Positions 49,099-64,000 of a DNA stretch of 64,000 bases are shown here, one piece after another. The stretch covers positions 546,933-610,932 of the forward strand of contig NZ_JAPVBQ010000002.1 in assembly GCF_026968045.1 (NCBI RefSeq). Reading direction: 5' to 3'. This DNA is from Modestobacter sp. VKM Ac-2977 (GTDB lineage: Bacteria > Actinomycetota > Actinomycetes > Mycobacteriales > Geodermatophilaceae). Position 1 is the first letter of the stretch. Every line of letters starts with the position of its first letter. Both the position numbers and the translations under genes were made by a program. The notes beneath the pieces were generated by a model that was given only the letters and a program-made list of their open reading frames with translations, did no database searches and was not told the origin of the DNA.

Positions 49099-50016
49099 AT
49101 GCCCACCCGCCCGGACGCCGTCGCCGCGCTGCCGGTCGCGCCGGGCGTGTACCGCTTCCGGGACGGCAGCGGCCGCGTGCTGTACGTCGGGCGGGCCGGC
49201 GAGTTGCGCCGCCGGGTCAGCTCCTACTGGGGTGACCTGCGCGACCGCCGCCACCTACGGCGGATGGTGCCGCGGGTCGCCCGGATCGAGGCGCTGGTCT
49301 GCGACTCCGCGCACGAGGCGGCCTGGGCCGAACGAAACCTGCTCGAGCGGTCGCTGCCACCGTGGAACCGGATCGTCGGCGGACTGGAGGTGCCGGTCAG
49401 CATCTGCCTGGACCCCTCGCCGGAGGCGCCGCGCCTCGGCCTCGCTGCGACGCAGCGGCCGACACCGGGTGTCCGCTTCTTCGGGCCGTACCTGGGGGCC
49501 GGCAAGGTGCGGTTGGCCGTGTCCGGGCTCGAACGGCTGTACCCGCTCGGTCACGCCGGCCCGACCCGCACCGCCGGCGAGCGGGAGCTGGCCCGGGTCC
49601 GCGGCGGGCAGGCACTCCCCGTCGCGCAGCTGGCGGGCGCCGTGGCGTCCGTGCTGGACCGCGAGCCGACGGCGGTCGCCGCTGCGCTGGCGGCCCTGAC
49701 CGCCCGGCGCGACGCCGCGGCCGGGCTGCACGCGTTCGAGGCCGCCGCCCGGCTCCAGCAGGAGATCGAGGCGGTCGAGTGGGTGGTCGCGCCGCAGCGG
49801 GTCACCGCGCCCGGCGAGGGAGGCGACCAGGTGGTCACCGCCTGGGGGGACGACGTCCTGGTGCGGCTGCGGATCCGGGACGGCCGGCTGCGCGCCTGGG
49901 AGCAGGAGACCTGCTCCCGCCCGGTTCCCGGCACCCGGGCGCCCGACGGGTGGGCGCCCTTCCTGCGTCGCAACGCAGAACTGGCCGCCCGGCTGGCGGC
50001 GCTGCCCGTCACGTGA
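49099..50016 (+). CDS. GIY-YIG nuclease, UvrC/Cho-like
   Basis: A 305-residue protein. Residues ~10-95 are the GIY-YIG domain with GVYRFRDGSGRVLYVGRAGE, a helix with RRRVSSYWG, and the catalytic Glu in HEAAWAERNLLE. Residues ~210-245 have a UVR-like helix (ALTARRDAAAGLHAF). There is no C-terminal RNase H-type UvrC nuclease, so it is a Cho-like single nuclease rather than full UvrC. It probably makes a single incision in DNA repair. It is the last intact gene before the rearranged region. Confidence 0.87.
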   Translation: MPTRPDAVAALPVAPGVYRFRDGSGRVLYVGRAGELRRRVSSYWGDLRDRRHLRRMVPRVARIEALVCDSAHEAAWAERNLLERSLPPWNRIVGGLEVPVSICLDPSPEAPRLGLAATQRPTPGVRFFGPYLGAGKVRLAVSGLERLYPLGHAGPTRTAGERELARVRGGQALPVAQLAGAVASVLDREPTAVAAALAALTARRDAAAGLHAFEAAARLQQEIEAVEWVVAPQRVTAPGEGGDQVVTAWGDDVLVRLRIRDGRLRAWEQETCSRPVPGTRAPDGWAPFLRRNAELAARLAALPVT

Positions 50017-50090
50017 GCTGCTCAGCTGAGCCGGGGCCCGAGGGCGTCAGTCGCCGTGCGGGTCGAGGTGGTTGAGAGCGTCGTGGCCTG

Positions 50091-50619
50091 GCCCGTTTCC
50101 GCACCGAGCAGCCGCCCTACTCGATCCTCAACCGGGGCAACGAACGCGAGGTGCTCCCGGTCTGCCAGCGATACGGCCTGGGCACCGTCGTCTGGAGCCC
50201 GCTGTCGATGGGGCTGCTCACCGGCCGCTACCGGAAAGGGCAGGAACAGCCATCGTCAGCCGCACGCATGCACTGGTGCCCCGGCACATGACCGACGAGC
50301 GCACACTCGACGCCGTCGAGCGGCTCATCCGGTTGCCGACCAGGCCGGCCTGTCACTGACCCATATGGCGATGGCCTTTGCCGTCGCCTATCCGGGAGTC
50401 ACCTCGGCGGTCATCGCGCCCCGCACGATGAGCCACCTGGAGGACCTGTTGGCCGGCGTCGGCGTGACCCTCGACGACGACGTCCCGGACCAGATCGGCG
50501 CGATCGTGCCGCCCGGGGTCGACCTCGGCCAGCTGGACGTGTCCTACGTGCCGCCACCGCTGCAGCAGGCCGCGCTGCGGCGACGATCGGTGGCCGAGCG
50601 CGCCGCCACCGTGGCATGA
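50091..50619 (+). pseudogene. Aldo/keto reductase, truncated with frameshifts
   Basis: Only the C-terminal half of an aldo/keto reductase remains. One frame gives [20 protein letters not shown] and [19 protein letters not shown]; a short second frame gives [14 protein letters not shown]; a third gives ADQAGLSLTHMAMAFAVAYP and VIAPRTMSHLEDLLAG, ending at the TGA at 50619. The N-terminal TIM-barrel half with the catalytic Tyr is missing. Two frameshifts plus the 5' truncation make it non-functional. It abuts the first qor fragment. Confidence 0.85.
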
Positions 50620-50653: not shown

Positions 50654-50816
50654 TAGATTGAGGGTCATGCGAGCCGTCCAGATCACCCGCTTCGGCGGTC
50701 CCGAGGTCCTCGACGTCGTCGATCTCCCCAACCCCGTCCCAGGGGACGGCCAGCAGGTCTATGAGGTGTCCGCCGCAGGAGTCAACTTCGCCGACACCCA
50801 CCACCGCGTGTCCTGA
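50654..50816 (+). pseudogene. qor 5' fragment, copy 1
   Basis: ATG 50667 encodes 49 residues of a zinc-independent quinone oxidoreductase N terminus (MRAVQITRFGGPEVLDVVDL, ending NFADTHHRVS, then TGA). TAGATT (50654-50659) ends 7 nt before the ATG, as for a leaderless promoter. Downstream, a few more qor-like codons (YLSKPD) follow in another frame before unrelated sequence. This copy has the most chromosome-like codon use at the break (TTCGCCGACACC), so it may be the original gene start. Confidence 0.88.
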
Positions 50817-50884
50817 GACCTACCTGAGCAAGCCGGACCGGACAACCCCCAGCGCAGTCCCGGGTAGCAGGGTCATGACGAGTC

Positions 50885-51208
50885 CGCCGCCGGATCGACC
50901 ACGTCGACGGGCGGTCGCGCCGGATCGTCGGCTGGCGAGCCTCGGTGGGCAGCAAGGGCGACAGCTACGACAATGCCGCCGCTGAGTCCCTGATCGGCCT
51001 CTACAAGACCGAACTCATCCGCCGACGCGGCCCTTGGCGGGGCCTCGACGACGTCGAACTCGCGACCCTTGAGTACGTCGACTGGTTCAACCACCGACGT
51101 CTGCACGGCGCCTGCGGCGACATCCCGCCAGTCGAGTACGAGGACCGCTACTACCGTTCGATCGCCGGCCTCACCGAGGACTCCCCGGCAGAACCGAGCT
51201 TCCACTGA
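50885..51208 (+). pseudogene. IS3-type transposase (OrfB) remnant
   Basis: The frame reads RRIDHVDGRSRRIVGWR joined directly to ASVGSKGDSYDNAAAESLIG, LYKTELIRRRGPW, YVDWFNHRRLHGACGDIPP, and ends FH-TGA at 51208. This is the end of an IS3-group DDE transposase with its middle part deleted: the catalytic Asp-Asp segment between GWR and ASVGS is gone, while the final Glu region (AESLIGLYK) remains. It fills most of the first qor module and ends 82 bp before the second copy. Confidence 0.82.
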
Positions 51209-51289
51209 ACCCGGGGCGGTTCATTCCACTTTCGCGGCCGGAGCCGGAGGGGGCAGTCGGCCGCGTACCGCTGCGTCGGCGCCGTTCCC

Positions 51290-51614
51290 TAGCGTCCCCT
51301 GCATGCGCGCAGTCCGGATCACCGAGTTCGGTGGACCCGAGGTCCTCAACGTCGTCGACCTGCCCGACCCCACCCCCGGGGACGGTGAGCAGCTGTTCGA
51401 GGTCTCCACCGCGGGCATCAACTATGCGGATGCACACCACCGCCTGTCGTCCGACCGACCTCGGAGCGATCCTCGACCACTGTCGACACCGAGCGCGGGC
51501 GGTACGCCTCAGGGCTCGGCTCGAGCCGTACCGGTGCTGTTCGTCGACGGCTTCCCGGACACCGGCGTATCCGCGATGACCTGCTCCAGGCGATCGCGCG
51601 TGGGGATCGAGTAG
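51290..51614 (+). pseudogene. qor 5' fragment, copy 2
   Basis: ATG 51303 encodes MRAVRITEFGGPEVLNVVDL and on to NYADAHHRLS, where homology stops near 51450. The frame then runs through unrelated residues to a stop at 51614. TAGCGT (51290-51295) lies 7 nt before the ATG. The break region TATGCGGATGCACACC has AT-richer codons than copy 1 and matches copy 4 closely. Confidence 0.87.
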
Positions 51615-51647
51615 GAGACGTCGGAGTCACGGCCTAGCCTATAGGGT

Positions 51648-51663
51648 TTAGGATGTAACCTAA
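51648..51663. promoter_or_regulatory. TetR operator over a leaderless start
   Basis: TTAGG-ATGTAA-CCTAA is an inverted repeat that overlaps the start codon of the TetR-SGNH gene at 51663. TAGGAT within it lies 8 nt before the ATG and could be the -10 element. Binding of the TetR domain would block its own transcription. Confidence 0.55.
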
Positions 51664-53489
51664 TGACCACAGGCATCGGGCGTGAGGGGCGGATGGCACG
51701 CGTCGGACTCACCGCAGAGCGGCTGACCCTGGCCGCCGCCGATCTGGCCGACGAGGTCGGGTTCGCCGAGGTCACCCTCTCGGCACTGGCCCGCCAGTTC
51801 GACGTGAAGGTGGCGAGCCTCTACGCCCACGTGCCGAGCTCCGGTGAGCTGCGCACCCGCGTCGCTCTGCTCGCCCTCGAGGAGATGGCCGACCTCGCCG
51901 CCTCGGCGCTGGCCGGCCGGGCGGGCAGGGACGCCCTGACCGCCTTCGCCGACGTCTACCGCAGCTACGCGCGCGAACACCCCGGCCGATATGCCGCCGC
52001 GCACCTCCGGCTCGACGCGGAGACCGCGACGAACAGCGCCGGTGTCCGGCACGCCGAGATGATGCGAGCGATCCTGCGCGGATACGAGCTCACCGGCGAC
52101 AACCAGACGCACGCCGTCCGGCTGCTGGGCAGCGTCTTCCACGGCTACGTGACCCTGGAGCTGGGTGGGAGCTTCGACCACAGCTCCCCTGACCCACAGG
52201 TGAGCTGGTCGCGCGTCCTCGACTCCCTCGACACGCTGCTGCGCGGCTGGACGGCGACAGCCGGCCCCCCCGCCCCGCAGCTGATCCCCCGCCCCCGCTC
52301 TTTCCCGAGGTCCACCATGTCCCCGCAGTTCCTCAGCAGCACCCCCCTCACCGCATCACTCCTGCGCGGTGCGATCGATCTCGAGCACACCGACCGAGGT
52401 CTCGTCCCGCACCGGCTCCCCGCCTGGGCGCGCGCGCAGTACGCCGACGGGCAGCTCGCGATGGCCGAGTCCCAGCCCTCAGGAGTCCGGCTGGTCTTCC
52501 GGACCGCCGCCACCACGATCGAGCTCGACACGATCGGGACGAAGGTCGCCTACGCGGGCGCTCCGGTGCGTCCCGATGGGCTGTACGACCTGGTGGTCGA
52601 CGGTCAGCTGACCGACCAGGCCACCGTGTCCGGGGGCGACGTCCTGTCGTTCGACCTGACCAGCGGGTCGGTCGAGCACCGCCCCGGGCCCGGAGGGACC
52701 GTCGCCTTCACCGGTCTCCCGGCGCAGGCCAAGGACGTCGAGATCTGGTTGCCGCACAATGAGACCACCGTGCTGGTCGAGCTCCGGACCGACGCACCCG
52801 TCGAGGCCGTCACCGGCGACACCCGTCCGGTGTGGCTGCACCACGGCAGCTCCATCAGCCAGGGCTCGAACGCGGCCAGCCCGTCCACCACGTGGCCCGC
52901 GATCGCCGCTTCGGCCGCCGGCGTGGACCTGGTCAACCTCGGCTTCGGCGGGAGCGCCCTGCTGGACCCGTTCACCGCGCGCACGATGCGCGACCAGCCG
53001 GCCGACCTGATCAGCGTGGCCATCGGGATCAACCTGGTGAACACCGACCTGATGCGCCTCCGGGCGCTCACCCCCGCGGTGCACGGCTTCCTGGACACCA
53101 TCCGGGACGGCCATCCGACGACGCCGCTGCTGGTGGTCTCGGCGATCCACTGCCCGATGCAGGAGGACACGCCCGGCCCGATCACCATTGACCCGGCGAC
53201 CTACGGCACCGCACAGGTCCAGTTCATGGCCACGGGGAATCCGGCGGAGGTGGCGGCGGGGAAGCTGACCCTGCGGGTCATCCGCGAGGAGCTGGCGCGG
53301 ATCGTCGCCAGCCGGGCGGAGGCGGACCTCAACCTGCACTACCTGGACGGGTTGGAGCTCTACGGCGAGGCCGACGGCGGCGCGTTGCCGCTCCCGGACA
53401 AGTTGCACCCCGACGCGGCCACCCACCGACTCATCGCCCGGCGCTTCGCCGAGCACGTCTTCGCGCCCAACGGCCCCTTCGGCGGGTAG
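51663..53489 (+). CDS. TetR regulator fused to SGNH hydrolase
   Basis: One 608-residue frame. Residues ~12-60 are a TetR helix-turn-helix (RLTLAAADLADEVGFAEVTL, QFDVKVASLYAHVPSSGELR), residues ~70-205 the WHG-type sensor domain (MMRAILRGYELTGDN, LLGSVFHGYVTLELGG). From residue ~219 (internal ATG 52317, GAGG at 6 nt) follows an SGNH/GDSL protein with a beta-rich domain, then WLHHGSSISQGS (Ser), LGFGGSALLD, VAIGINLVN and DKLHPDAATHR (Asp-x2-His). These parts are normally separate genes. Lost stop, or a fusion where the internal start also makes free hydrolase, are both possible. It is the only high-GC cargo gene of the island. Confidence 0.85.
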   Translation: MTTGIGREGRMARVGLTAERLTLAAADLADEVGFAEVTLSALARQFDVKVASLYAHVPSSGELRTRVALLALEEMADLAASALAGRAGRDALTAFADVYRSYAREHPGRYAAAHLRLDAETATNSAGVRHAEMMRAILRGYELTGDNQTHAVRLLGSVFHGYVTLELGGSFDHSSPDPQVSWSRVLDSLDTLLRGWTATAGPPAPQLIPRPRSFPRSTMSPQFLSSTPLTASLLRGAIDLEHTDRGLVPHRLPAWARAQYADGQLAMAESQPSGVRLVFRTAATTIELDTIGTKVAYAGAPVRPDGLYDLVVDGQLTDQATVSGGDVLSFDLTSGSVEHRPGPGGTVAFTGLPAQAKDVEIWLPHNETTVLVELRTDAPVEAVTGDTRPVWLHHGSSISQGSNAASPSTTWPAIAASAAGVDLVNLGFGGSALLDPFTARTMRDQPADLISVAIGINLVNTDLMRLRALTPAVHGFLDTIRDGHPTTPLLVVSAIHCPMQEDTPGPITIDPATYGTAQVQFMATGNPAEVAAGKLTLRVIREELARIVASRAEADLNLHYLDGLELYGEADGGALPLPDKLHPDAATHRLIARRFAEHVFAPNGPFGG

Positions 53490-53712
53490 GCGCCACACCC
53501 TCGGCGTACCCGACCGGAGCCTCCCGGCCGGACCGACCGATCCCCGTCGTCCTGGCCGGGCTGTTTTCCCCGGACGTCGTCGACGCCGCACCTGCGGGAG
53601 GGCATCGCCGGCGCGGACCGCACACCCTCCGCCGCCGAGCTGGGCGGGATCGGCCGGCAGTTGGCGTCGTCGAGGACTCGCGCGGGCCGCCACGCGCTCG
53701 CCGTGCACAGGG

Positions 53713-53870
53713 TTCCGCGACGACGTCGTGGACCTCGCCCGCAACCGTGAGCCGGGCCAGCACCTGGAGCAGATCGCGGCCGACTTCGGGATCAGCGAGT
53801 CGGCCTGACGAACCGGATGGAGGTCGCCGACGTCGAAGACGGGGCCGAGCCCGGGACCACGGTGTCGGAC
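53713..53870 (+). pseudogene. IS3-type OrfA remnant
   Basis: FRDDVVDLARNREPGQHLEQ and IAADFGISESA reproduce the OrfA helix-turn-helix, then a stop at 53806. The next OrfA segment (MEVADVEDGAEPGTT) continues one base out of frame. OrfB is absent. The surrounding 53,490-54,006 holds no other recognisable gene. The same OrfA family is complete at 62,278. Confidence 0.75.
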
Positions 53871-54006
53871 GGCCGCCATGGAGTCGTTCTCCGCCCTGCC
53901 GCAGAAGACATGGCGCGACAGGCGGAAGGGCAGCGCCCAGACACGCGGAGGGGCGCCTGCTTGCCCCTCCCCGCGACCTCGGCCGGTGACGGGCTGGGCC
54001 AGGTCA

Positions 54007-54169
54007 TAGCCTCTCCGTCATGCGAGCCGTGCAGATCACCGAGTTCGGTGGCCCCGAGGTCCTCAACGTCGTCGACCTGCCCGACCCCACCCCGGGAGAC
54101 GGCGAGCAGCTCTTCGACGTCTCGACCGCCGGCATCAATTATGCCGACACACATCAGCGGCTGTCGTGA
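54007..54169 (+). pseudogene. qor 5' fragment, copy 3
   Basis: ATG 54020 encodes 49 residues, MRAVQITEFGGPEVLNVVDL to NYADTHQRLS and TGA. TAGCCT (54007-54012) ends 7 nt before the ATG. After the break it shares TGAGACCTACCT with copy 1, so the sequence just right of the junction is conserved between these two copies. Confidence 0.88.
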
Positions 54170-54481
54170 GACCTACCTCAGCTGGCAAGTAACTGGCTGG
54201 ACCGCACGTCGAAGCCCGCTGGATGGGACACCAGGGATGGTCTCGCTTCTGGCGGACGTCACATCTGGGGTGTACGGACAACGCCGGTGCCGCCGACGCC
54301 GCGAAGTTCGCGGCCAGCCACCGGCGCGCGGCCTCGCCGACGATGGACCCAGCCCAAAGGCAAAGAACCCATCCGTCGCCCAACAGTCGATGGCCCGGGC
54401 CGGTTGCCTGCATTGGGTCGGCATCTTGGATGAGCACGTCTCGGCGCTAAAGGGCGCGACTCAACGCGCCGATATCAATCC
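54170..54481. other. Non-coding stretch after qor copy 3
   Basis: About 310 bp. Reading frames on either strand have no family signature and no credible ribosome site. It begins with the short conserved arm right of the qor break. I see nothing else. Confidence 0.5.
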
Positions 54482-54787
54482 GTGTCAAAACAGGCCTGGG
54501 AAGAGACGAAGTACACGGAGTTCAGGAACCTGCTCGCTCAAGATTGGAGGTCGTACGCACTCGCCTTCGACGCCAAGACACATCTCCGGATGGCAACACT
54601 GCTCCACGAGCTTGACATGCGTAGAGACCCCGAGCTATTGAGGGCGTTGGTCGCCGATGCCGCCATGGTCTACGTGTATTTTGACAGGCTCCGCCATTTG
54701 ACAGCCCGGGAACTCCGCGACGCAATCATTCAGGAGTCTCGCGGCCTTGCAACATGGGGAACCAGCCCGTCGGACAGGCCTACCTAA
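54482..54787 (+). CDS. Small helical protein, unknown
   Basis: A 101-residue protein (GTG 54482) predicted mostly helical: YTEFRNLLAQDWRSYALAFD, TLLHELDMRRDPELLRALVA, YFDRLRHLTARELRDAIIQE. No cysteines, membrane segments or known motif. Codon use includes AT-rich codons (ATT, TTT, CTA) unusual in the flanking chromosome, suggesting transfer. No clear ribosome site precedes the GTG, so the start is uncertain. It opens the third module and may work with the nuclease-like gene behind it. Confidence 0.5.
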   Translation: MSKQAWEETKYTEFRNLLAQDWRSYALAFDAKTHLRMATLLHELDMRRDPELLRALVADAAMVYVYFDRLRHLTARELRDAIIQESRGLATWGTSPSDRPT

Positions 54788-55064
54788 CCGAAGAGGTCGG
54801 ACAACTCCTAGGCTGATTTCTCGTTGCCGACGATCGCGCCAAGGTCTACTCGCCTGCGGTGGGGCTTGGTGAGCTAATCGAACATGGCCCGGAACCACGG
54901 GCGATTCGTTCGTTGTGGCAACTCGGTTCCACTGGTCGTGCGCATTCAAGTTGTGCGGTCAACTTAGCAACCGGCCACCTGCATCGGCGAGTCATGGGCC
55001 GCCAGGCGCCAGCAGCGGGCGTCGTCCACGCCCGGTCCAGTAGTGCAGGCCATTGCGAGAGAAC

Positions 55065-55649
55065 GTGACGAAAGGATATTGGGTCTTGGCCAATAAGAAC
55101 AGACTCACATTGGCCGTACGGTTGCCGACCGACCGCAGCGCCCGCAGGAATGAAGCACTTCATGAACTGGCTTGGCGCGATCTGCTCGAATTGGTTCCCG
55201 GCACCCTGTCGAGACTCCTGACTCTTGCGCCACTACCGGCGGGCGCTAGTGCGATCTCATTGGCAACGGGCGTGCGCATCGGATTCGCCGGTGGCTGCGG
55301 TTCCGATCTCTTCGTCACATGCGCGGCGTGTGAACTCGAGCGTGCTGTTATAGAGATCAAGGGGCCGACTGCATCGATGAACCTCGGCATCGACGGGTGG
55401 CAGACGGACGTGTATCGCAGCAAGTATGTCAATGGCATCTCCATGGCGTGCCAGTGCGTGGTCCGCGAGCCGGTCCCACTCCTATTTCTACTTGACGCCC
55501 GGGACCGCAACCGCCACAGCATCGAGCGGACGGAAGGTTGCCACTACCCACTGGACTTGAGCAAGTGGGTCGTCCTTCCATACAGTTCCGTCTTGCAAGT
55601 TGCACCCTTCGCCGGTCATGCCCTGGCGGCCTGGCTGACTGGACGCTAA
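55065..55649 (+). CDS. PD-(D/E)XK nuclease-like protein
   Basis: A 194-residue cargo protein. A helical N terminus (HELAWRDLLELVPGTLSRLL) is followed by a strand with Asp81 in GGCGSDLFVT and then ERAVIEIKG with Glu97 and Lys99. The spacing D-x15-E-x-K and the strand pattern are those of PD-(D/E)XK nucleases. A cysteine pair (CAAC) lies between. GTG 55065 has GAGAGAAC upstream; a TTG 12 bases earlier is an alternative. The next gene, convergent, is a HEPN protein. A defence nuclease is plausible, but the family is not identified. Confidence 0.6.
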   Translation: MTKGYWVLANKNRLTLAVRLPTDRSARRNEALHELAWRDLLELVPGTLSRLLTLAPLPAGASAISLATGVRIGFAGGCGSDLFVTCAACELERAVIEIKGPTASMNLGIDGWQTDVYRSKYVNGISMACQCVVREPVPLLFLLDARDRNRHSIERTEGCHYPLDLSKWVVLPYSSVLQVAPFAGHALAAWLTGR

Positions 55650-55721
55650 GTCATGCGAGATCGTCGCGCCGCACGAGACGCGCCGACTGCAGCAGAGGCC
55701 AGTGCACTTTCGCGACTCCTT

Positions 55722-57368
55722 TCACGCGTCCGGGCCGGTGGTGGTCGTAGGCGCCTGGCCCAGAATGAGCTTTAGACTTCGACCAGTTCCGTCCTTCTCA
55801 GTTAAGAGGTCGGGTCGATCGCCGAAAATTCTCCTCAAAGCCGCGATGGCGAAGTCGAGCGCCTCGTAACAAAGCGCGATTTCAGTCTGCTTGGGCTGAC
55901 TGCTCCCATGGACCGCCTTGCTCCTGAGCGTGTAGATCTTTCCGAGCTTTTCGCGAAGATCAAGACGTTCCGTCGGGTCGGACCTCAGTAGCAGAGCGAG
56001 GCTGGCAGTCACCCGGAGCGTGGGTTCACCCTGACTGCTCCCAAACATATTCTCCCACGCAATCACCGAATCGATAAGAACATCGACGGGATCGCGGCGT
56101 TCAGCAGTGGCGCGGATGATCCGGTTCATCGCTATGGCCAGTCTCTCACTTCCAGGCGACGCAACATAGCCGAACCATGTCTGCCACTCCCCGACTTCCT
56201 CCTCGCTGAGTATTGTCGGCATCAAACCGACGACTTGGCGCGGATCCGACCACCCTTGGCTGGGATACTGGTCCAACGGGTCGTCGATGGACTGCCAGCT
56301 TGGCGCAATTTGCACTCGCTGCTCTCGCCTCACTGCGAGTAACAGACTCACCCTCAGCTGTTCAGTCAGTTCGGCGGTTCGATTTGCCTTGACCAGGTCG
56401 GCCGGCCATTCGGGAAGCGAGTCGTCCGACTCTGCTCTGAATCGAACCAAGTACGGCACCTGGGCTTCTGCGACAACATCACCCGCGTAGTCGATGGCGA
56501 CCACCTCGCCGTCGGGGTTCGTTGTCTGCAGTTGCCCACGGATGCTCTTCGGCACGCGATCACCATCTTGGTCACCCGCCTGGCGAAGCACCAGATCGCC
56601 GAATGTGTACGGACCCCCGGGTAAACGCACTCCGGCGAACGCGAACCACGCTGGCACTGACACTTGACTCTTGGTCGTAAGCAGCCGACGAACTAGCTGC
56701 CATCGATCCAAGGCAAGTTGACAATAGTGAGATATAACCGGGGTGGCGCCGTCCGCTGGCCGCGCGCGCCAAGCCCCCGCCATGATGAGCTCAAGTAAGC
56801 TCCATAGTTGCAGTGAGTTTCCGCGGCCCGTACTCCGATAGATCATGTCAGTCGTGCGCCCGGTGTGGTCGGTTTCGTTCTTGAAAATCTTGGCCAGTTC
56901 CGCGTCCGACACGACCCCTGCCTGGAATTCGGCGGCTAGATGATGCCGGAACAAGAGCGAGGTGGCATTTGTACTCAGACGCCCGGCTGGGAAGTCGGCC
57001 CAGAAGGGATCTGGTGGGAGTAGGAGTGTCGAGTAACACTCCGCAGCCATCCGCACCACCAACCCGTCCAGCCGGTCTGTGGTCTCGGGCAGCGACACGA
57101 CGCCGCCCGCCTGCTTGTGGAGCGTGAGAGCCAAGACCTCGCCGTCCACCTCCTCGCTGAGGCGATATCTAAGGAACTCACCCATGGCCTTCGGGTCTTC
57201 TGCTTCACCTACGACGGTGGCAAGGACACCGTTGATTTGTCTGACTATTGCCGTCGCAGCGCCGCTACCGGCAATTTCCTCTATGGGACGGGCACACACG
57301 AACTCGAGCAGTGCCCGGCCTAGAGCTCCGGCTGCATGGTCGACCTCGGACTGCTGAAGAGGAGGCAC
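55722..57368 (-). CDS. HEPN-domain protein (Apea-like), large
   Basis: A 548-residue cytosolic protein filling most of the third module. The C-terminal ~130 residues look like an Apea-type HEPN domain (DVLIDSVIAWENMFGSSQGE, then LGKIYTLRSKAVHGSSQ), with Arg482 and His487 forming the Rx4H motif of HEPN ribonucleases. The N-terminal ~400 residues have no family I recognise; they are mixed helix and strand (WSLLELIMAGAWRARPAD, VPYLVRFRAESDD). GTG 57368 is the likely start, 48 bp from qor copy 4 on the other strand. HEPN proteins are common effectors of anti-phage systems; that role here is inferred. Confidence 0.75.
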   Translation of the reverse strand: MPPLQQSEVDHAAGALGRALLEFVCARPIEEIAGSGAATAIVRQINGVLATVVGEAEDPKAMGEFLRYRLSEEVDGEVLALTLHKQAGGVVSLPETTDRLDGLVVRMAAECYSTLLLPPDPFWADFPAGRLSTNATSLLFRHHLAAEFQAGVVSDAELAKIFKNETDHTGRTTDMIYRSTGRGNSLQLWSLLELIMAGAWRARPADGATPVISHYCQLALDRWQLVRRLLTTKSQVSVPAWFAFAGVRLPGGPYTFGDLVLRQAGDQDGDRVPKSIRGQLQTTNPDGEVVAIDYAGDVVAEAQVPYLVRFRAESDDSLPEWPADLVKANRTAELTEQLRVSLLLAVRREQRVQIAPSWQSIDDPLDQYPSQGWSDPRQVVGLMPTILSEEEVGEWQTWFGYVASPGSERLAIAMNRIIRATAERRDPVDVLIDSVIAWENMFGSSQGEPTLRVTASLALLLRSDPTERLDLREKLGKIYTLRSKAVHGSSQPKQTEIALCYEALDFAIAALRRIFGDRPDLLTEKDGTGRSLKLILGQAPTTTTGPDA

Positions 57369-57402
57369 CCACCTATCCTCGCAGCGCGAGGGCGGCCCGG
57401 CT

Positions 57403-57571
57403 TAGCCTCACCGTCATGCGCGCTGTGCAGATCACCCGCTTCGGCGGCCCCGAGGTCATGGACGTCGTCGACCTGCCCGACCCGGTCCCCGGGGACGGCG
57501 AGCAGCTCTTCGACATCTCCTCGTCCGGCGTCAATTTTGCGGATACACACCACCGCCTGTCGTGCAACTGA
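57403..57571 (+). pseudogene. qor 5' fragment, copy 4
   Basis: ATG 57416 encodes 51 residues, MRAVQITRFGGPEVMDVVDL to NFADTHHRLSCN and TGA. TAGCCT (57403-57408) ends 7 nt before the ATG. The break region TTTTGCGGATACACACC is shared exactly with copy 5, and both continue with CAACTGACAT. Confidence 0.88.
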
Positions 57572-57672
57572 CATGTTGCGGACCACCAGACGAACCGCTT
57601 GAAGCCCTTGCAGCGGGCGCCCTAAGGATCGGCTTTCGGGCCCTCCGCCGGACGCTTTCAAGGCATTCCGCG

Positions 57673-58848
57673 TTAGTGGAAGTCTGGCTCACCCGCACAC
57701 CAGTCGTCCCGGATGCCGAGCTCGGCCAGGTTCGCGCTCGCGAGCGGGGCTTCCGGCTCCGCGACCGTGACGTCGATCGGTGCGGCCCATGGCATGTGGA
57801 GGTTCACTGTCACCGCCGGGTCGAGCGTGCGCCAAAGCCACGGCACCGCCTTATGAATGTTGTATAGGCTGATTCCGCTCCCCACTACGACGTACGGGTT
57901 GTGCGAGCGGCGCCAGCCATGGATTGTCCGCCAGTGTCCGTCTGTACTCAGTTCCGTGAAGTCCGCGACTTGCGACGGACCCAGCCAGTGCATTCCGTAC
58001 AGCGTCGGCTGGACGTCGTAGGGCCGCGTCGGAGACTCGGTGTTGCTGAGCACCGCTGTGACCAGCGGGTAGGGAAGGTCAGCGCCGTACCTGTTCGACT
58101 TAGCGCCGAGGACACGATTGAGACCTGCCTTGTTGTCCGCCCCCCTGGCTCTGCCCGCTCCGCGGATCGCCACCAGGGGCGCTTGATCCGAGCCCACGGG
58201 CAACGCCGTGAAATCGAGCTTCCAGCCGTCGTCGTCATACGAAAATTTTGGCCGACCGGCGTACTCATCGGTGTCATGAGATCGATCGAGGTCATCCAGC
58301 CATGTAACCAGCCGGTTCCGCAACCGGACAGCTTTCGGCGGTCGCGGTCCAATTCGGTGCCACTCAAAGCTGAGGGTCCAGCCGTCGACCCGAGTGTTGT
58401 CGAGGATCGCCTCGACGTCGCGATGCCGCCGCTCCGAGGTTCGCTTCTCCGGCGCCATGCCGACGCTTACGGCTTCGAGGTAGAACGGTTGAGACGCGTG
58501 TACCAAGAAGTCCGGGTGCTTCGACGTCCCCGGGACGTCTGGATGAGTCTCCACTTCACACCCTGAGCCAGCCAGCAGCTAATGCAGGTAGAGCTCCCAG
58601 AAGGCGCCGTCGAACGCGTCGTCGTCACCACTTCCAAGGTTCCCCACGACGCTAGGGCGATCGTCGACCGGGAAGGCGTCAACCCACCGCTGCAGCAGGT
58701 CCCGCACGGGCACAAAGAAGTCGGATCCGGTTCGACTCGGGAACTCGTAGCTCGACTCGTTCGAGCGGCGAGGCGACCGGTTTCTGCGATCGCTTGGCTC
58801 AAATATTCTCGTGGCAACAAGATACGCACCCCGTGGCGCCGAGGACCC
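57673..58848 (-). pseudogene. Nuclease-like protein interrupted by an amber codon
   Basis: From 58554 down to 57673 an open frame of 293 codons carries GTSKHPDFLVHASQPFYLEA, a restriction-endonuclease-like Asp...Glu-Ala pair without the usual lysine, then WTLSFEWHRIGPRPP and PLVTAVLSNTESPT. The same frame continues upstream through a TAG at 58581-58579 into a convincing extension (RTGSDFFVPVRDLLQRW, DAFDGAFWELYLH), bounded by a stop at 58851 with no start codon. So the original protein was longer and has both a nonsense codon and a lost start. It may be translated only from an internal start. Confidence 0.65.
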
Positions 58849-59037
58849 TCAGCAACCAGTTACTCAGCATGCCGTCTCGGCCAGGGCAGCGAAATCCAGG
58901 ACCCCCTGATCGATGTCGCTGGCGCGGTCATCAACCGTCTAGGCGCGCTTCCCGGCAGCGCAGGCGAGGTCATAGCACTACCTTATCGACCATAAGATGG
59001 CACTGTGTTGTTAGCTGAGCTTGGCGGAGCCGCTACT

Positions 59038-59484
59038 TCAAACTTCCTCGAGCAGGCTTTTCTCGACGGCTGATAGTGAGCTCTCGCCCTCGAGCACGTC
59101 GGGGGCATCGGCCACCTCCTGCAACCAGTCTGGGATCGCCTCACCTCGCCCGCGCAAGATTGCGATCTTCGTCTGCGCAAGACGTTTCTCGGCCGACGTC
59201 ACTTTGTACGGGACCATCAACTTCGTGCGCAAGACAGACTTATTCAAGTTGAGCTGGCGATCCAGCTCGGCCACCGCGGCGGGCTCGGCCTGAATGTCGA
59301 CGATGGCGTAGATGCCCTCGACGTTTCTTTCTAGCTCATAGGACAGTCGGCGGCGGCCCCAAATTTCCGTCTTGACGACTCCACCAGCATCGGTGACGAC
59401 GGATAGGAATCGGTCCAGGCTAGGAGCGATCGACCGATCCTCCAGTTCAGGATCTAGGATGATCATCAACTCGTAGTGACGCAC
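59038..59484 (-). CDS. rpsF: Ribosomal protein bS6 paralogue with C-terminal extension
   Basis: A 148-residue protein whose first ~95 residues are plain bS6: [40 protein letters not shown] and [19 protein letters not shown]. bS6 sits on the 30S platform beside bS18. The last ~50 residues ([20 protein letters not shown] onward, acidic end) are not found in the housekeeping protein. It lacks its usual ssb-rpsR-rplI partners and lies between cargo genes, with lower GC. GTG 59484 has AAAGGGG upstream. It is probably a second copy acquired with the island; function as a spare or altered ribosomal protein is inference. Confidence 0.88.
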
Positions 59485-59542
59485 TTGATCACCACCCCTT
59501 TCGCTGCACGGTCCTGATCGGTCTCGAATGACGGACGGGCCA

Positions 59543-59914
59543 TTACACGTCGCCCTGCAGTTCGCTCAGCGTAACAACTCTCACAAATGTGGTTGCCTCG
59601 CGCTGCTCGCGGGCGTTTCTAGGAGCAGCAAGAAGAGCATCTACGGCAACTTCTATAGCCGCCCGGTCGGACGCACTGACATCGGGGTCGTTCGCCCGAG
59701 ACTGCAAGATGGCCGTACCGGTTTCGGCTAGCTTTGTGTTATCACTAGCCGACCACTCGATAGCTCTGTGAATCTCCGATTGCAGGTGCTTGCGAGTCTC
59801 ACGCTTGTCGAGCTGTTCCGCCGCTGCTGCCGCGTTGTTTGCCCCCAGACGCGTGCCAAGGAATGTGAATAGGGCTGCTACAACCGCACCAGCTAGTAGG
59901 AGCCACGCGTCCAA
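59543..59914 (-). CDS. Single-pass membrane-anchored helical protein
   Basis: A 123-residue protein with one N-terminal hydrophobic helix ([17 protein letters not shown]) followed by a soluble helical region ([37 protein letters not shown]). TTG 59914 is the start: AGGAGG lies five bases before it, and no ATG or GTG is better placed. It lies 58 bp upstream of the bS6 paralogue on the same strand and is probably in one operon with it. Function unknown. Confidence 0.68.
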
Positions 59915-60260
59915 GGTGCCTCCTAGTCCATGTCGGCGGGTCGACTTTAAGTCGGATTGTCACACCTGTCGCCCCCTGTCTCGGCGCAGGGATGACGACG
60001 TGCGCTTCCTGGCTGCGAACCCTCTAGCGGCCTTGGGGTTGGAGTCGGTGTTGAGGTTGGGGTGGATCATGCCGTCAGGAGCCAGTCGCTCAGTACGAGA
60101 TCGCGCTGGCCGGCGTCTTTAGCGGGGGCGCCCGCCTTGGCAAGGCTCAGGTGCCCCTCGTCCGGACGGCGGCCGGGCTAGCACCACCGCCTTGTCATAC
60201 CGCCCCTTCGAGTGTCCACGAGCCTCGGCAGACTCAAGCCGGCCGCTGATGGCGGCCAAC
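59915..60260. other. Non-coding stretch in the fourth module
   Basis: About 345 bp with no supported gene. Short frames on both strands lack ribosome sites and recognisable motifs. Promoters for the membrane-protein/bS6 pair should lie here, but no clear -35/-10 pair stands out. Confidence 0.5.
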
Positions 60261-60878
60261 TCATCGAGACTTGGCCAAGAGCTCGCGGGCCTTCACACGT
60301 CGCTCGAGAAGCTTGGCGTGAGTCGCCCCCACCCAGCGGCGCCGATCGCCCGCATGCGCCTCCCATCGGTCGATGACCGCGATCTCAGACTCGTAGTCCT
60401 TCAGCTTGCGATAGATGATGGCCGCTTCGTTCGTCCATCCTGGCGCGGTTTCTCGAGCGCGGTGCTCCGAGACGGGGCGGCCGAAGTACTGGGCACGCAC
60501 CGGGGCGTTCGCGTTCTCCACGGCCTGCTGTGACTCGGTCGCGGCGATGATCTCGTGCAGGAGGGCCAGAGCCTCGTCGTATCGCTGCTCTCGCTTGAGG
60601 GACGCGACCTCGTGGGACCACTGCGTGTGGTGACGCCCACGGACTAGGCCAGCCTCATGCTCGGCTGCTTCCAGACGATCCATCGGCGGCACCCAACGGC
60701 CGTCTCGGAGCATGCTCCAAGCACGCTCACCCTGACCCATGCCCTCGTACCGGGAGTCATTCTGCCGCTCGTAGTACGAGGCCCGCTGCCGGGAAGTCCC
60801 CTCGCTGGCGCTAGCCATCAACTCACTGTTCGTCGTCGAGGCCTGGGGACTGGAGCGGCGCAGCAGTCGACCGAACAC
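60261..60878 (-). CDS. Helical, TPR-like hypothetical protein
   Basis: A 205-residue soluble protein. A low-complexity Ser/Arg start is followed by WSMLRDGRWVPPMDRLEAAE and helix pairs that look like degenerate tetratricopeptide repeats (EVASLKREQRYDEALALLHE, NEAAIIYRKLKDYESEIAVI), ending in a basic helix. GTG 60878 follows GGAGGTCCC. Similar proteins occur in many actinobacteria without assigned function. It is the first gene of the minus-strand group in this module. Confidence 0.7.
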   Translation of the reverse strand: MFGRLLRRSSPQASTTNSELMASASEGTSRQRASYYERQNDSRYEGMGQGERAWSMLRDGRWVPPMDRLEAAEHEAGLVRGRHHTQWSHEVASLKREQRYDEALALLHEIIAATESQQAVENANAPVRAQYFGRPVSEHRARETAPGWTNEAAIIYRKLKDYESEIAVIDRWEAHAGDRRRWVGATHAKLLERRVKARELLAKSR

Positions 60879-61096
60879 GGGACCTCCTCCGGGCGCTGGG
60901 CCCGAGTCGAATGAGCCCTCACCGTAGGTTCGCTGCGCGCCTGCCTCGGCAAGCGGCTTCGCGTCGGCGCGTCGCTGCTAACGAGCCGTTGTGGTCCCAA
61001 GCCGCGTATGTCTAGGGGGCGCAGACGCTGCTCCCCTCTGGCGAAGGAGCGGCTGTGTGCCAAACAGGAGGCATGTGGCCCTGCCCGCAATGCCCC

Positions 61097-61265
61097 TAAG
61101 TTGAGGTGTATGCGAGCCGTGCAGATCACACGCTTCGGTGGCCCCGAGGTTCTCGACATCGTCGACCTCCCCGACCCGGTCCCTACCGAGGGCCAGACGC
61201 TCTTCGACATCAGCTCGTCGGGCGTCAATTTTGCGGATACACACCTCGCCCTCTCGCCCAACTGA
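61097..61265 (+). pseudogene. qor 5' fragment, copy 5
   Basis: ATG 61110 encodes 51 residues, MRAVQITRFGGPEVLDIVDL to NFADTHLALSPN and TGA. TAAGTT (61097-61102) ends 7 nt before the ATG. It matches copy 4 across the break but differs from all others in PTEGQTLFD, so it is an independently diverged allele rather than a recent duplicate. Confidence 0.88.
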
Positions 61266-61350
61266 CATCAGCAGAGCACAAGCGCAGGACTTTGGGTGCA
61301 CGGCAGGCAACAGTCACCGGCCAGCTCGTCTCCGTGAAACGCTAGCCAGC

Positions 61351-62187
61351 ATGGAAGCGATGGGTGCCTTCACGGCGGAGACTGGTGGTCGGTTGCGCCG
61401 GGTCTTCGAGGATGCTCTTCCAGGGTGGCGAGCGCATGTCGCTCAGCAGCCCAAATTTGAGCCCCACAGTGACCTTGCTGATCAGCGCGAGATATACGAC
61501 CGAGGAAGTGCCCTGACGTGGCATTCCTTGTGTAACGCTGTCGATCACTTGAGCGCGCTGAAGGTGCTCTGGCTGGATGCCAGACGGGTCCACGCACTCG
61601 CCGACGCCACCCTCATCCGTACGGCCCTCCTGTCGGCGTCCACGGCGCTCTACTTGCTTGACGACGCGCCCGATGCCGATCACAGGGAGCGACTTCAACG
61701 CGCGGGGCTCGCTTCGCTTACCGACCACAAGGACTTCGACACACACCTCGCAGGTATCGCCGACCTTGTCCGGACACTGGGGCCCGAGGCGGTCGCTCAG
61801 CACCAGTCCGTACTAACGCAGCTACAGACGTGGATCGTAAAGGCTCGGCAAGTCGCACAAGATCATGGCGCCTCGAGCACCAAGATCAAGAGCCTCACGC
61901 CCCTGGCCGCGTCGACCTGCGTCCGACGCGCGGCCGACTACATCGCGGAAGACGCCCAAGACCCGGACGACGCAGCACGATTGCGTTCCGCTATCATGAC
62001 GACCTGGCGAACCGGAAGTGCCGCTGCCCACGGGCGCATGTGGCCGCTACTGATAGCGCGCCGACGAGACGACCGGGCCTTCGTCCATACGGATCTTGAG
62101 GAGCTAGCCTCAGGGGTGATGGCAACAGCCCTCATCCTCAGCCAGGCATGGCGACTCTGGGATCTCCGCCGAATAGCACGTGCTTGA
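61351..62187 (+). CDS. Helical protein with HEPN-like Rx6H motif
   Basis: A 278-residue protein, almost entirely helical (GSALTWHSLCNAVDHLSALK, LIRTALLSASTALYLLDDAP, IADLVRTLGPEAVAQHQSVL). Near the end MTTWRTGSAAAHGRMW places Arg220 and His227 in a HEPN-like Rx6H arrangement before a final helix. Overall it resembles uncharacterised HEPN-superfamily proteins of phage-defence regions, but the match is by pattern only. ATG 61351 lies 85 bp after qor copy 5. It is followed directly by an IS3-type element. Confidence 0.65.
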   Translation: MEAMGAFTAETGGRLRRVFEDALPGWRAHVAQQPKFEPHSDLADQREIYDRGSALTWHSLCNAVDHLSALKVLWLDARRVHALADATLIRTALLSASTALYLLDDAPDADHRERLQRAGLASLTDHKDFDTHLAGIADLVRTLGPEAVAQHQSVLTQLQTWIVKARQVAQDHGASSTKIKSLTPLAASTCVRRAADYIAEDAQDPDDAARLRSAIMTTWRTGSAAAHGRMWPLLIARRRDDRAFVHTDLEELASGVMATALILSQAWRLWDLRRIARA

Positions 62188-62277
62188 CCCGACTCGCCGG
62201 CTCGACCGGGCTGGGGACTGCTCCCGGTTCGGTTGACTCCTTGCCTGTGAGGCTGCGGCCTCGCTGGAAGGATCAGC

Positions 62278-62586
62278 ATCGCCCCCAAGCCGTTCCCGCC
62301 GGAGTTCCGGCGTGACGTGATCGCCGTGGCCCGCAAGGGCGAGGCGTCGGTCTCCCAAGTCGCGCGCGACTTCGGGATCTCGGAGTCCTGTCTGCAGCGC
62401 TGGCTGAAAGTCGCCGACCGGGAGGACGGCCTCGCACCACCGGCCAGCGGTGACCGGGGCGGCGGTGGCCAGGACGAGTCTGCCGAGCTGCGGGAGCTGC
62501 GCCGGCGCAACAAGCTGCTGGAGCAGGAGAACGAGATTTTGCGGCGGGCGACGGCCTACTTTGCCCGCGACGTCCTCCCAAAATGA
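62278..62586 (+). CDS. IS3-family OrfA
   Basis: OrfA of an IS3-type element, a helix-turn-helix plus leucine-zipper protein that binds the terminal repeats. It has PPEFRRDVIAVARKGEASVS, QVARDFGISESCLQRWLKVA and the zipper ELRRRNKLLEQENEILRR. Homology reaches back to about 62278, where only ATC follows GGAAGGA at start distance; the first standard start is GTG 62317, inside the helix-turn-helix. It overlaps OrfB by ATGA in CCCAAAATGA, which may serve translational coupling or frameshifting. Confidence 0.88.
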   Translation: MAPKPFPPEFRRDVIAVARKGEASVSQVARDFGISESCLQRWLKVADREDGLAPPASGDRGGGGQDESAELRELRRRNKLLEQENEILRRATAYFARDVLPK

Positions 62587-63164
62587 TCTACCCGCTGGTC
62601 CAAGAGCTCGCCGCCGAGAAGATTCCTGTCGCGGTGACCTGCCGGGTGCTCGGCTTCTCCAAGCAGGCGTTCTACAAGTGGCAGGCCAACCCGATCAGCC
62701 AGCGCGACTGGGACGATGCCCACCTGATCAACGCCGCCTACGACGTCCACGGCGACGACCCCGCGTTCGGCTACCGGTTCATCGCCGACGAGCTCCGCGA
62801 GCAGGGCATCGCCGCAGGTGAGAACCGTGTCGCCCGGTTGTGCTCGCAGCAGCGAATCTGGTCGATCTTCGCCAAGAAGCGAGGCCTGAACCGCAAGGCC
62901 GGCCCGCCTGTGCACGACGACCTGGTCGACCGGAAGTTCACCGCGACCGCGCCGAACGTCATCTGGCTCACCGACATCACCGAGCACAACACCGCCGAGG
63001 GCAAGCTCTACCTCTGCGCGATCAAGCACGTCTACTCCGGCCGAATCGTCGGCTACTCCATCGACTCGCGGGTGAGAGCCTCCCTGGCGGTGGCGGCACT
63101 GCGCAACGCCATCATCCGGCGCAGCCCGGTAGGCACAACGGTGCACTCCGACCGCGGCAGCCAG
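62583..63164 (+). pseudogene. IS3-family OrfB transposase, cut by an IS30 insertion
   Basis: The DDE transposase runs from ATG 62583 with VTCRVLGFSKQAFYKWQANP, the HTH_21 region DDPAFGYRFIADELR, and the catalytic Asp in VIWLTDITEHNTAEGKLYL and the second Asp in TVHSDRGSQ. At 63164, right after HSDRGSQ, the sequence changes to the IS30-type element; the frame continues as unrelated codons. The third catalytic residue (Glu) is lost, so this copy cannot transpose itself. Confidence 0.9.
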
Positions 63165-64000
63165 GGCGAATTCCACCGGTCGTCGCAACACCTTGATCGT
63201 GGAGGTGTGGGTCGTGGCGACAGTGGACTGGACCAAGAAGGCCAGCGATGTAGCCGAGGGCGCGCGTCGGCAGTGGCGTGCTGATCGTGCGCTCCGGCCG
63301 GCGATGCGTTCGCCTGGCCGGCCGGAGCCCTCGCGGGTGGTGCAGCGTCAGTTCTGGCGGCTGATCGCCACGGGGGTCACCACCGTCGAGGCCTCGTTGG
63401 CGGTCGGCGTGTCCTGGCCGGTGGGCACCCGGTGGTTTCGACACGCTGGCGGCATGCCGCCCATCTCGCTGGCCGAGCCCACGGGCCGCTACCTGACGTT
63501 CGAGGAGCGCGAGGAGATCGCGATACTGCGTGCCAAGGGCGCCGGGGTGCGCCAGATCGCCCGCACCCTGCACCGCGATCCCTCGACGATCTCTCGCGAG
63601 CTGCGCCGCAACGCCGCCACGCGTGGCGGTCGGCCCGAGTACCGCGCGACGGTGGCCCAGTGGAAGGCCCAGCAGGCCGCGAAGCGCCCGAAGGCCGCCA
63701 AGCTCGTCACCAACGAGCACCTGCGCGACTACGTCCAGGAACGCTTGGACGGCACCGTGCGACGGGGTGATGGCACGGTCGTGGCCGGGCCGGCCGCGGC
63801 CGGGTGGCAGGGGCGCAAGATGAAGCCCCATCGGGCAGATCGGCGCTGGGCCACATCCTGGAGCCCGCAGCAGATCAGCAACCGCATTCGGCTGGACTTC
63901 CCCGAGGATGAGTCCATGCGGATCAGCCACGAGGCGATCTACCAGGCGTTGTTCATCCAGGGCCGTGGTGCGCTCAAGCGTGAGCTCGTCGCCTGCCTGC
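63165..64000 (+). mobile_element. IS30-family element, left part
   Basis: The element begins within about three bases of 63165 (GGCGAATTCCACCGG), inside OrfB of the IS3-type element, and continues past the window. Its transposase starts at 63214. The other end and the target duplication cannot be seen here. Confidence 0.75.
63214..64000 (+). CDS. IS30-family transposase, 5' part
   Basis: GTG 63214 (GGAGGTG upstream) opens a frame that is still open at the end of the window, 262 codons. It contains the IS30 N-terminal helix-turn-helix (YLTFEEREEIAILRAKGAGV, RQIARTLHRDPSTISRELRR) and SWSPQQISNRIRLDFP, MRISHEAIYQALFIQGRG. The DDE catalytic core lies beyond base 64,000. It catalyses insertion with little target specificity; here the target was another insertion sequence. 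Confidence 0.92.
   Translation, partial: MATVDWTKKASDVAEGARRQWRADRALRPAMRSPGRPEPSRVVQRQFWRLIATGVTTVEASLAVGVSWPVGTRWFRHAGGMPPISLAEPTGRYLTFEEREEIAILRAKGAGVRQIARTLHRDPSTISRELRRNAATRGGRPEYRATVAQWKAQQAAKRPKAAKLVTNEHLRDYVQERLDGTVRRGDGTVVAGPAAAGWQGRKMKPHRADRRWATSWSPQQISNRIRLDFPEDESMRISHEAIYQALFIQGRGALKRELVACL

Follow-up and report, generated by a model that had tools for sequence, protein, structure and literature searches.

The SXT/R391 elements are large conjugative elements that carry their own integrase and insert in the 5' end of prfC, for which they supply a substitute start. Integrons collect many small unrelated cassettes, which are added successively at a fixed end with the tyrosine recombinase IntI, the attC site being recognised as a folded single strand. 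Farrugia et al. (2015, PMC4482086) have described islands and prophages that integrate at one point in the 5' end of dusA and replace it with their own sequence. Promoter-like regions lie before and after the islands, the original 5' end persists at the far side, a dedicated integrase is encoded, and the word "tandem" does not appear in that paper. McMurdie et al. (2011, PMC3146451) have reported islands with strain-specific cargo that lie in tandem, inside a region of about 100 kb, at ssrA of Dehalococcoides, separated by repeats consisting of 20 bp of the 3' end of this RNA gene; 16 of the 31 islands have a serine-recombinase module and 15 have no integration module and may be cis-mobilizable. 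Genes annotated as quinone oxidoreductases are also known as phage sites: wrbA is the site of an Stx prophage, MSMEG_3106 (likened to qor by annotation only) is a secondary bacterial attachment site (attB) of a mycobacteriophage mutant, and phage Jorvik inserts beside such a gene. Here we describe an array of probable mobile cassettes at a quinone oxidoreductase gene, qor, in Modestobacter sp. VKM Ac-2977 (G000; assembly GCF_026968045.1). The stretch analysed, called the window below, comprises 64,000 nucleotides (nt) of contig NZ_JAPVBQ010000002.1 (C9:546933-610932) of this 4.31-Mb genome.

The window contains five copies of the 5' part of qor, all on the + strand, with start codons at 50667, 51303, 54020, 57416 and 61110. 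A first-pass annotation, made by a model from the sequence alone, had listed these starts, and the first 138 nt of qor are colinear and gap-free in all five. It had also regarded the copies as differing from each other, which agrees with pairwise DNA identities of 72–87% over the first 144 nt (73–88% against intact qor). An intact full-length qor, anticipated to the right of base 64,000, starts 2.8 kb past the right end of the window, at C9:613779 (window coordinate 66847). An attachment (att) site profile built from fragments across the family, the window's own five included, gave scores of 145–182 bits for the five copies; its sole other match in the window scored 15.7 bits (position 8472), and no clear qor fragment was found with it in the left 50 kb. 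The point at which the copies leave qor is CACCA|, the second base of codon 46. Past this codon, copies 1–4 continue with CGG CTG TCG-like codons, copy 5 with GCC CTC TCG and intact qor with ACC GAG GAC, so that intact qor translates as THQ-TEDSYL and most fragments as THH-RLS. The shared break had been placed at about codon 48; it does coincide in all copies that reach codon 46, and its position needs correction, the RLS residues being the left end of the inserted element, outside the qor repeat. The two sequences reported beyond the break were confirmed: TGAGACCTACCT follows copies 1 and 3, and CAACTGACAT follows copies 4 and 5.

An empty site was found in Modestobacter caceresii (G021), the relative that bears out the expectation of an intact qor at this locus. 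There an uninterrupted qor directly follows the homologue of the window gene at 49100..50016 (+ strand; GIY-YIG/UvrC-like by eye). Over the last 35 nt before the break, copy 1, which is the left-most and the closest to the native allele, has one difference from the intact M. caceresii gene, and past the break it departs from it. The counterpart of the M. caceresii gene in the window genome, 95% identical over 1536 bp with the 5' piece included, lies about 16.2 kb rightwards, and the window genome is about 16.2 kb longer at the insertion point. The same five fragments as a simple tandem duplication, which the first-pass annotation had named as a refuting outcome, were not found in the arrays of relatives.

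The wider neighbourhood of the gene is also variable. In outgroups that belong to the same taxonomic order (G023, G030, G038) qor adjoins fabG-fabI. In Modestobacter, fabI and qor share a contig and are 78–206 kb apart in eight genomes (G000, G001, G007, G009, G015, G017, G018, G021) and 9.6 kb apart in G004; they are 1.55 Mb apart in G008 and stand on separate contigs in G003, G005, G006, G011 and G014. The interval, very short in outgroups, is thus a large variable region in Modestobacter that extends beyond the recognisable array. Much of the 78–206 kb may have been accreted, although the left 50 kb of the window showed no clear fragment.

Comparison across the family revealed a common anatomy. 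A unit begins with a left end of about 24 nt, for which there are two main types; unrelated cargo follows, and a promoter-like box with 136 nt of qor closes the unit. Alignment of 51 fragment rows reaching codon 46 with 19 intact genes showed that the breaks coincide, as had been claimed for the window. The non-redundant set comprised 59 "full" sites, a class set by a length rule and including at least two read-through fragments (L103, L130), and 91 fragments. Truncated copies cannot reveal the break position; the sets for breaks, left ends and substitution rates hold only copies matching through codon 46, so that truncated and frameshifted copies are absent and counts of open frames are biased upwards. 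Type I left ends (consensus CGGCTGTCGTCCAACTGACCTGA) were found in 44 of the 91 fragments and type II (CGGCTGTCGTGAGAGGTACATCAG) in 34, and conservation to the right of the break ends after about 24 nt. Conservation ahead of the ATG is confined to about 15 nt, with CCTAGCCT immediately preceding the start (consensus of 67 fragments); an example is the -10-like TAGCCT at 57403..57408 (+) before the ATG of copy 4. From its sequence and position, CCTAGCCT may be the -10 box of an active, leaderless promoter. The frame of the fragments ends at a stop at codon 52 in 41 of 91 cases and at codon 50 in 28. In all 19 intact qor genes, outgroup G023 among them, the reading frame is open through the junction. 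Intervals between copies in Modestobacter arrays (n=57) range from 0.18 to 25 kb with a median of 3.7 kb, some of them being split by decayed copies. The locus thus presents tandem units bounded by repeats of the target, with no recombinase in the arrays of the 12 genomes searched, and a single insertion point close to the start of a protein gene, whose N-terminal codons the units supply in frame, together with a putative promoter recognised from the consensus of the upstream box.

Fragments are widespread in Geodermatophilaceae. A 49-residue composite query against 39 relatives detected fragment clusters, mostly beside one intact qor. With the att-site profile (>40 bits), 15 of 23 Modestobacter genomes (G000–G022) have at least one fragment, the largest number being 11 in M. 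altitudinis (G006), and further fragments occur at loci of Blastococcus, Geodermatophilus, Trujillonella, Goekera and Klenkia; the search for tandem fragments in other genomes that the first-pass annotation proposed was thus rewarded. G007, G009, G012 and G019 have intact qor alone in the stretch examined. G010, G013, G016 and G020 were covered by the 49-residue query only and stand outside the att-profile set; the query gave no close copy in G010, G013 and G020 and a doubtful copy in G016. The assembly of G002 is fragmented, with no intact qor among the contigs examined. Of 397 genomes sampled from the order, 19 matched a strict junction pattern, and every one of these belongs to Geodermatophilaceae (reversed-pattern control, 1 of 397); the genomes sampled outside the family gave no match. 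The exact type I left end was present in 7 of 112 family genomes, with no match in the control. Both patterns are strict and miss many known fragments, and they gauge specificity rather than frequency. The qor att profile was present at all 18 pattern loci tested (17 distinct sites).

A cassette with exact limits at both ends was found in two species. M. altitudinis (G006) and M. excelsi (G011) share a five-gene unit of 5.7 kb at 96.4% identity, and on either side its neighbours differ between the two genomes. The qor piece that forms the right end does not differ between them up to CACCAC, beyond which lies a type II neighbour in G006 and a type I neighbour in G011. At the left end of the unit the two agree to the right of the break, and the qor pieces of the left neighbours differ to within 12 nt of it. 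Eleven pairs have related DNA beyond the left end but left neighbours that are unrelated; in all of them the left qor pieces were less than 0.90 identical, with a mean of 0.78 against a background of 0.76, as expected if insertion is site-specific.

Taken with the empty site, these observations support the proposal of the first-pass annotation that elements with a substitute gene start have integrated repeatedly and site-specifically in qor. The main tests fit that proposal; its core lies slightly elsewhere, and it did not foresee that qor pieces are mosaic or exchanged. We consider it probable, with good confidence, that the locus is an accretion array in which cassettes recombine site-specifically at one point in codon 46, accompanied by homologous exchange. 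A mobile cassette would recombine with the host gene at that codon, for which the position, one empty site and one cassette exact at both ends are at hand. The left end of the cassette would be a recombinase site of about 24 nt, in two main types; its right end, as the anatomy shows, is a promoter-like box with 136 nt of a qor allele. The anatomy also shows that insertion strands the old 5' end as a fragment, usually stopping at codon 50 or 52, and gives qor a new start in frame, with the function of the enzyme presumably retained. Because the new 5' end would carry the target core, the site would be regenerated and further cassettes could enter there. The newest cassette would adjoin qor, as copy decay and the identity of the shared cassettes partly support. 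Homologous exchange among qor pieces does occur in addition. A bolder version is tentative and rather doubtful: a family-wide, integron-like system with a working metabolic gene as its fixed attachment site, in which a shared recombinase acting in trans adds cassettes that have none. The enzyme would possibly belong to no described family or be a host enzyme in a new role, and each addition would swap the promoter and N-terminus of qor.

The direction of growth and the coding history of the fragments were also examined. Within the eight genomes that have at least three fragments, copies decay away from qor (permutation p 0.0024). No stop occurs within 46 codons in 86 of the 91 fragments, and the median ratio of nonsynonymous to synonymous substitution rates, computed from open frames only, is 0.31 among open fragments (n=67) and 0.22 among open 5' ends classed as "full" (n=57). 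Open frames and low ratios are expected if the pieces once coded for a working enzyme. Among 13 intact genes (78 pairs), taken from 18 intact Modestobacter genes of which the remainder are apparently duplicates of named loci, divergence of the first 120 nt does not track that of the rest (rho 0.16, p 0.15), and that of the next 120 nt does (rho 0.53, p 7e-7).

Several observations weigh against an accretion array of this kind. Neither left-end type fits 13 of the 91 fragments. The window array has no decay by distance (rho -0.1), and decay pooled over genomes is not significant (rho -0.25, p 0.07, n=51). In the intact genes, identity is lower in the 5' part than in the 120 nt that follow it in 40 of 78 pairs (p 0.09), which is no clear difference. 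A two-fold symmetry centre at CA, one base before the divergence, is present with both left-end types (z about 2.5 and 2.2) and ranks second, not first. Of the 11 pairs with related DNA on the right, at least 3 have left ends of different types (G001/G014, G008/L117, G008/L116), so that a cargo does not always retain its left end. The 25 pairs related only upstream of the qor piece average 0.77 identity in that piece against a background of 0.76 (standard deviation 0.07), reach 0.90 in just two pairs, and in five pairs agree for about 60 nt and then differ; the qor piece thus does not simply travel with its cargo. In addition, whole-genome searches of 12 array-bearing Modestobacter genomes gave no match to PF00589 or PF00239 inside the arrays, the positions of matches and arrays being compared by eye.

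The recombinase gene that the first-pass annotation expected nearby was thus not found: the 12 genomes revealed neither an IntI tyrosine recombinase beside an array (PF00589) nor a serine integrase gene belonging to an element (PF00239). The array-bearing genomes G002, G004 and G022 lay outside the PF00589 search, and G001, G005 and G015 have no PF00239 match anywhere in the genome. Home-made recombinase hidden Markov models, run on 1.70 Mb in 93 sequences that include overlapping duplicates, reached E values of 0.005 and 0.03 at best, which is weak evidence of absence at hold-out sensitivities of 32 of 76 for tyrosine and 19 of 36 for serine recombinases. Pfam assigns the two best candidates to the TetR regulators and the Sir2 family and not to the recombinases. 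Clustering of called cassette genes gave no family common to the cassettes, and a Pfam census of 119 cassette proteins (133 families) showed no recombinase among the 25 most frequent families; for this census 134 genes of at least 90 amino acids were chosen, corresponding to 130 references, and 11, mostly homologues of listed ones, were left out by hand. Viral contigs, plasmids and phages contained no relative of the 49-amino-acid qor piece. Among viral contigs the type I left-end pattern was present in six, with no qor alongside, and the type II pattern in none. The att core was not found at the recombinase loci examined, nor was a helper element with a matching integrase found in the arrays, viral contigs, phages or plasmids. 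Since the arrays of the 12 genomes have no recombinase, we infer an enzyme that acts in trans, from elsewhere or from a helper, or that has been lost.

Loss is the core of the alternative that survives best, according to which the arrays are relics of an integrase that once lay next to the site and was deleted from the copies, with nothing mobile today. The 12 genomes' arrays without an integrase match and the truncation of several copies would suit it. Loss from dozens of cassettes is, however, less simple than action in trans, and the 96.4% identical unit of M. altitudinis and M. excelsi lies in different surroundings. Furthermore, among the 16 pairs of shared cassettes there is no case in which both members are known to be last cassettes (rank known in all but two pairs), so the newest cassettes differ between species. 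We regard relic arrays as unlikely.

The exchange of qor pieces bears on a second alternative, homologous recombination alone, in which DNA ending in a qor piece recombines with the 5' region of the chromosomal gene and leaves fragments behind. The five pairs that switch near nt 60 and the background-level average of the 25 upstream-related pairs speak for it, and qor pieces are indeed often mosaic or exchanged; homologous recombination between copies, of which there are many, is the presumed cause. In favour of site-specific accretion, three of the four pairs at least 95% identical upstream have qor pieces that are 0.99, 0.91 and 0.88 identical, the fourth pair having a copy (G011) without its first 100 nt. 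Identities were computed both ungapped and with gaps; the mean and individual values given here are gapped, and the switch near nt 60 comes from the ungapped comparison. The gapped recount of the 25 pairs slightly lowered our still high confidence in site-specific accretion and slightly raised the low standing of homologous recombination alone. The latter does not account for the common breakpoint of copies reaching codon 46, the two conserved left ends of about 24 nt that are not qor, or the cassette exact at both ends, and we judge it improbable.

It has also to be considered that host XerC and XerD insert the cassettes, in the manner of integrase-less elements that use dif-like sites. Two fragment-bearing genomes, G018 and G434 (Blastococcus haudaquaticus, L103), each have two strong PF00589 matches, by our reading XerC and XerD, with a partial PF00239 match (resolvase) in G018 and none in G434. 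Among other genera the PF00589 search covered 13 genomes of 14 loci (L110 left out), and its results describe genome content, unplaced relative to the arrays. A precedent is phage Jorvik, which has no integrase and has dif-like att sites (PMC10589892). A dif site was located, with one match each, in G000 (C9:103345-103366), G006, G018 and G434, and the att site is no closer to it than shuffles are (13–14 of 28, p 0.24 and 0.14; attB, p 0.90), which leaves the Xer explanation distinctly improbable. Phage attachment sites (attP) of large serine integrases are about 50 bp long, with an imperfect inverted repeat around a central dinucleotide. The short, weakly symmetric, CA-centred site at qor may point to an enzyme of this class, with about equal chances for and against. 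A role of the qor 5' piece in serving the cargo at its right, as a mobile promoter or as a gene for a small peptide, is barely credible: the -10-like box and a frame open to codon 52 or 50 are kept, but of the 43 fragments followed by a gene at a distance of at most 1.5 kb, 30 have that first gene in antisense orientation (p 0.014; from 49 fragments, partial copies left out), and in the intact gene this segment is seen in its ordinary role.

Within the window, an aldo/keto reductase remnant of about 0.5 kb (50056-50619, +), absent in M. caceresii, lies between the left neighbour gene and copy 1 (50667..50803, +), which ends at the crossover CACCA|. The cassettes that follow, all on the + strand, were measured from the break positions. 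Cassette 1 (50804..51439; 0.64 kb) has a type II left end (50804-50827) with TGAGACCTACCT, then a putative transposase-like remnant, and its right end is copy 2 (51303-51439). Cassette 2 (51440..54156; 2.7 kb) has a degenerate type I left end (51440-51463) and ends with copy 3 (54020-54156). It contains an open reading frame (51663-53489, +) of 608 amino acids that by Pfam fuses a TetR-type regulator (TetR_C_33) and an SsfX3_N/GDSL hydrolase in a single frame. Cassette 3 (54157..57552; 3.4 kb) has a type II left end (54157-54180), two open reading frames with no Pfam match (55053-55649, +; 55722-57368, -) and copy 4 as its right end (57416-57552). Cassette 4 (57553..61246; 3.7 kb) has a type I left end (57553-57576), an open reading frame at 57673-58554 (-), a ribosomal protein S6 paralogue at 59038-59484 (-; PF01250, E 1e-24) and copy 5 as its right end (61110-61246). 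Cassette 5 (61247..64000 in the window, whole 61247 to 66983; 5.7 kb) begins with a type I left end (61247-61270), and its right end is the 5' end of intact qor. Its contents are an open reading frame ending at 62187 with no clear Pfam match, two transposase-type genes (62583-63284, with rve and HTH_21 domains, and L010:126-1589, with HTH_38), which by reading may be IS3- and IS30-like, and a 545-amino-acid open reading frame beyond the window end. PADLOC gave no match for 10 proteins of the window and its flanks. In other arrays, a recurrent gene of 578 amino acids that fuses DUF429 and RelA_SpoT domains (L054:11007-12743) has relatives in G005, G008, G014 and G018, and the aligned DNA of cassettes with this gene is 94–95% identical among G001, G008 and G014. 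The last cassette of G008 (L051:14908-17318) contains an AAA ATPase and two small proteins, one with a SHOCT domain.

The array explains a variable region present in many members of the Geodermatophilaceae, and the borders of its cassettes can be read directly from the sequence. It shows how a protein gene may remain a reusable landing site when the insert brings the landing site's own coding sequence, and it raises the question of which enzyme moves dozens of cassettes in which no recombinase of a recognised kind was found. No description of qor cassette arrays was found in the open-licence literature searched, in line with the statement of the first-pass annotation that it knew of no family using qor in this way. 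Like SXT/R391, the system has the 5' end of a protein gene as its site and replaces the start; unlike it, qor has a stack of small cassettes and not one large conjugative element with an integrase. Integrons share with it the serial addition of small unrelated cassettes at a fixed end, whereas no IntI-like gene was found in the qor arrays searched and their fixed end is formed by a host gene that receives a new start. The phages at wrbA and MSMEG_3106 and phage Jorvik are single phages, and the available parts of their descriptions contain no fragment arrays or substitute starts. The dusA islands resemble the qor cassettes in one-point integration at the 5' end of a protein gene, with that end replaced and the original retained; they differ in that the target here is qor, with up to 11 fragments per genome and no integrase found in the arrays searched. 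The ssrA islands resemble them in tandem units between repeats of the target gene and in variable cargo, and differ in that the qor repeat is a promoter-like box with 136 nt from the start of a protein gene and that the arrays of the 12 genomes searched yielded no recombinase. Overall, it is the combination of a substitute gene start with long arrays, without a recombinase in the arrays searched, that sets the qor system apart from the dusA and ssrA islands.

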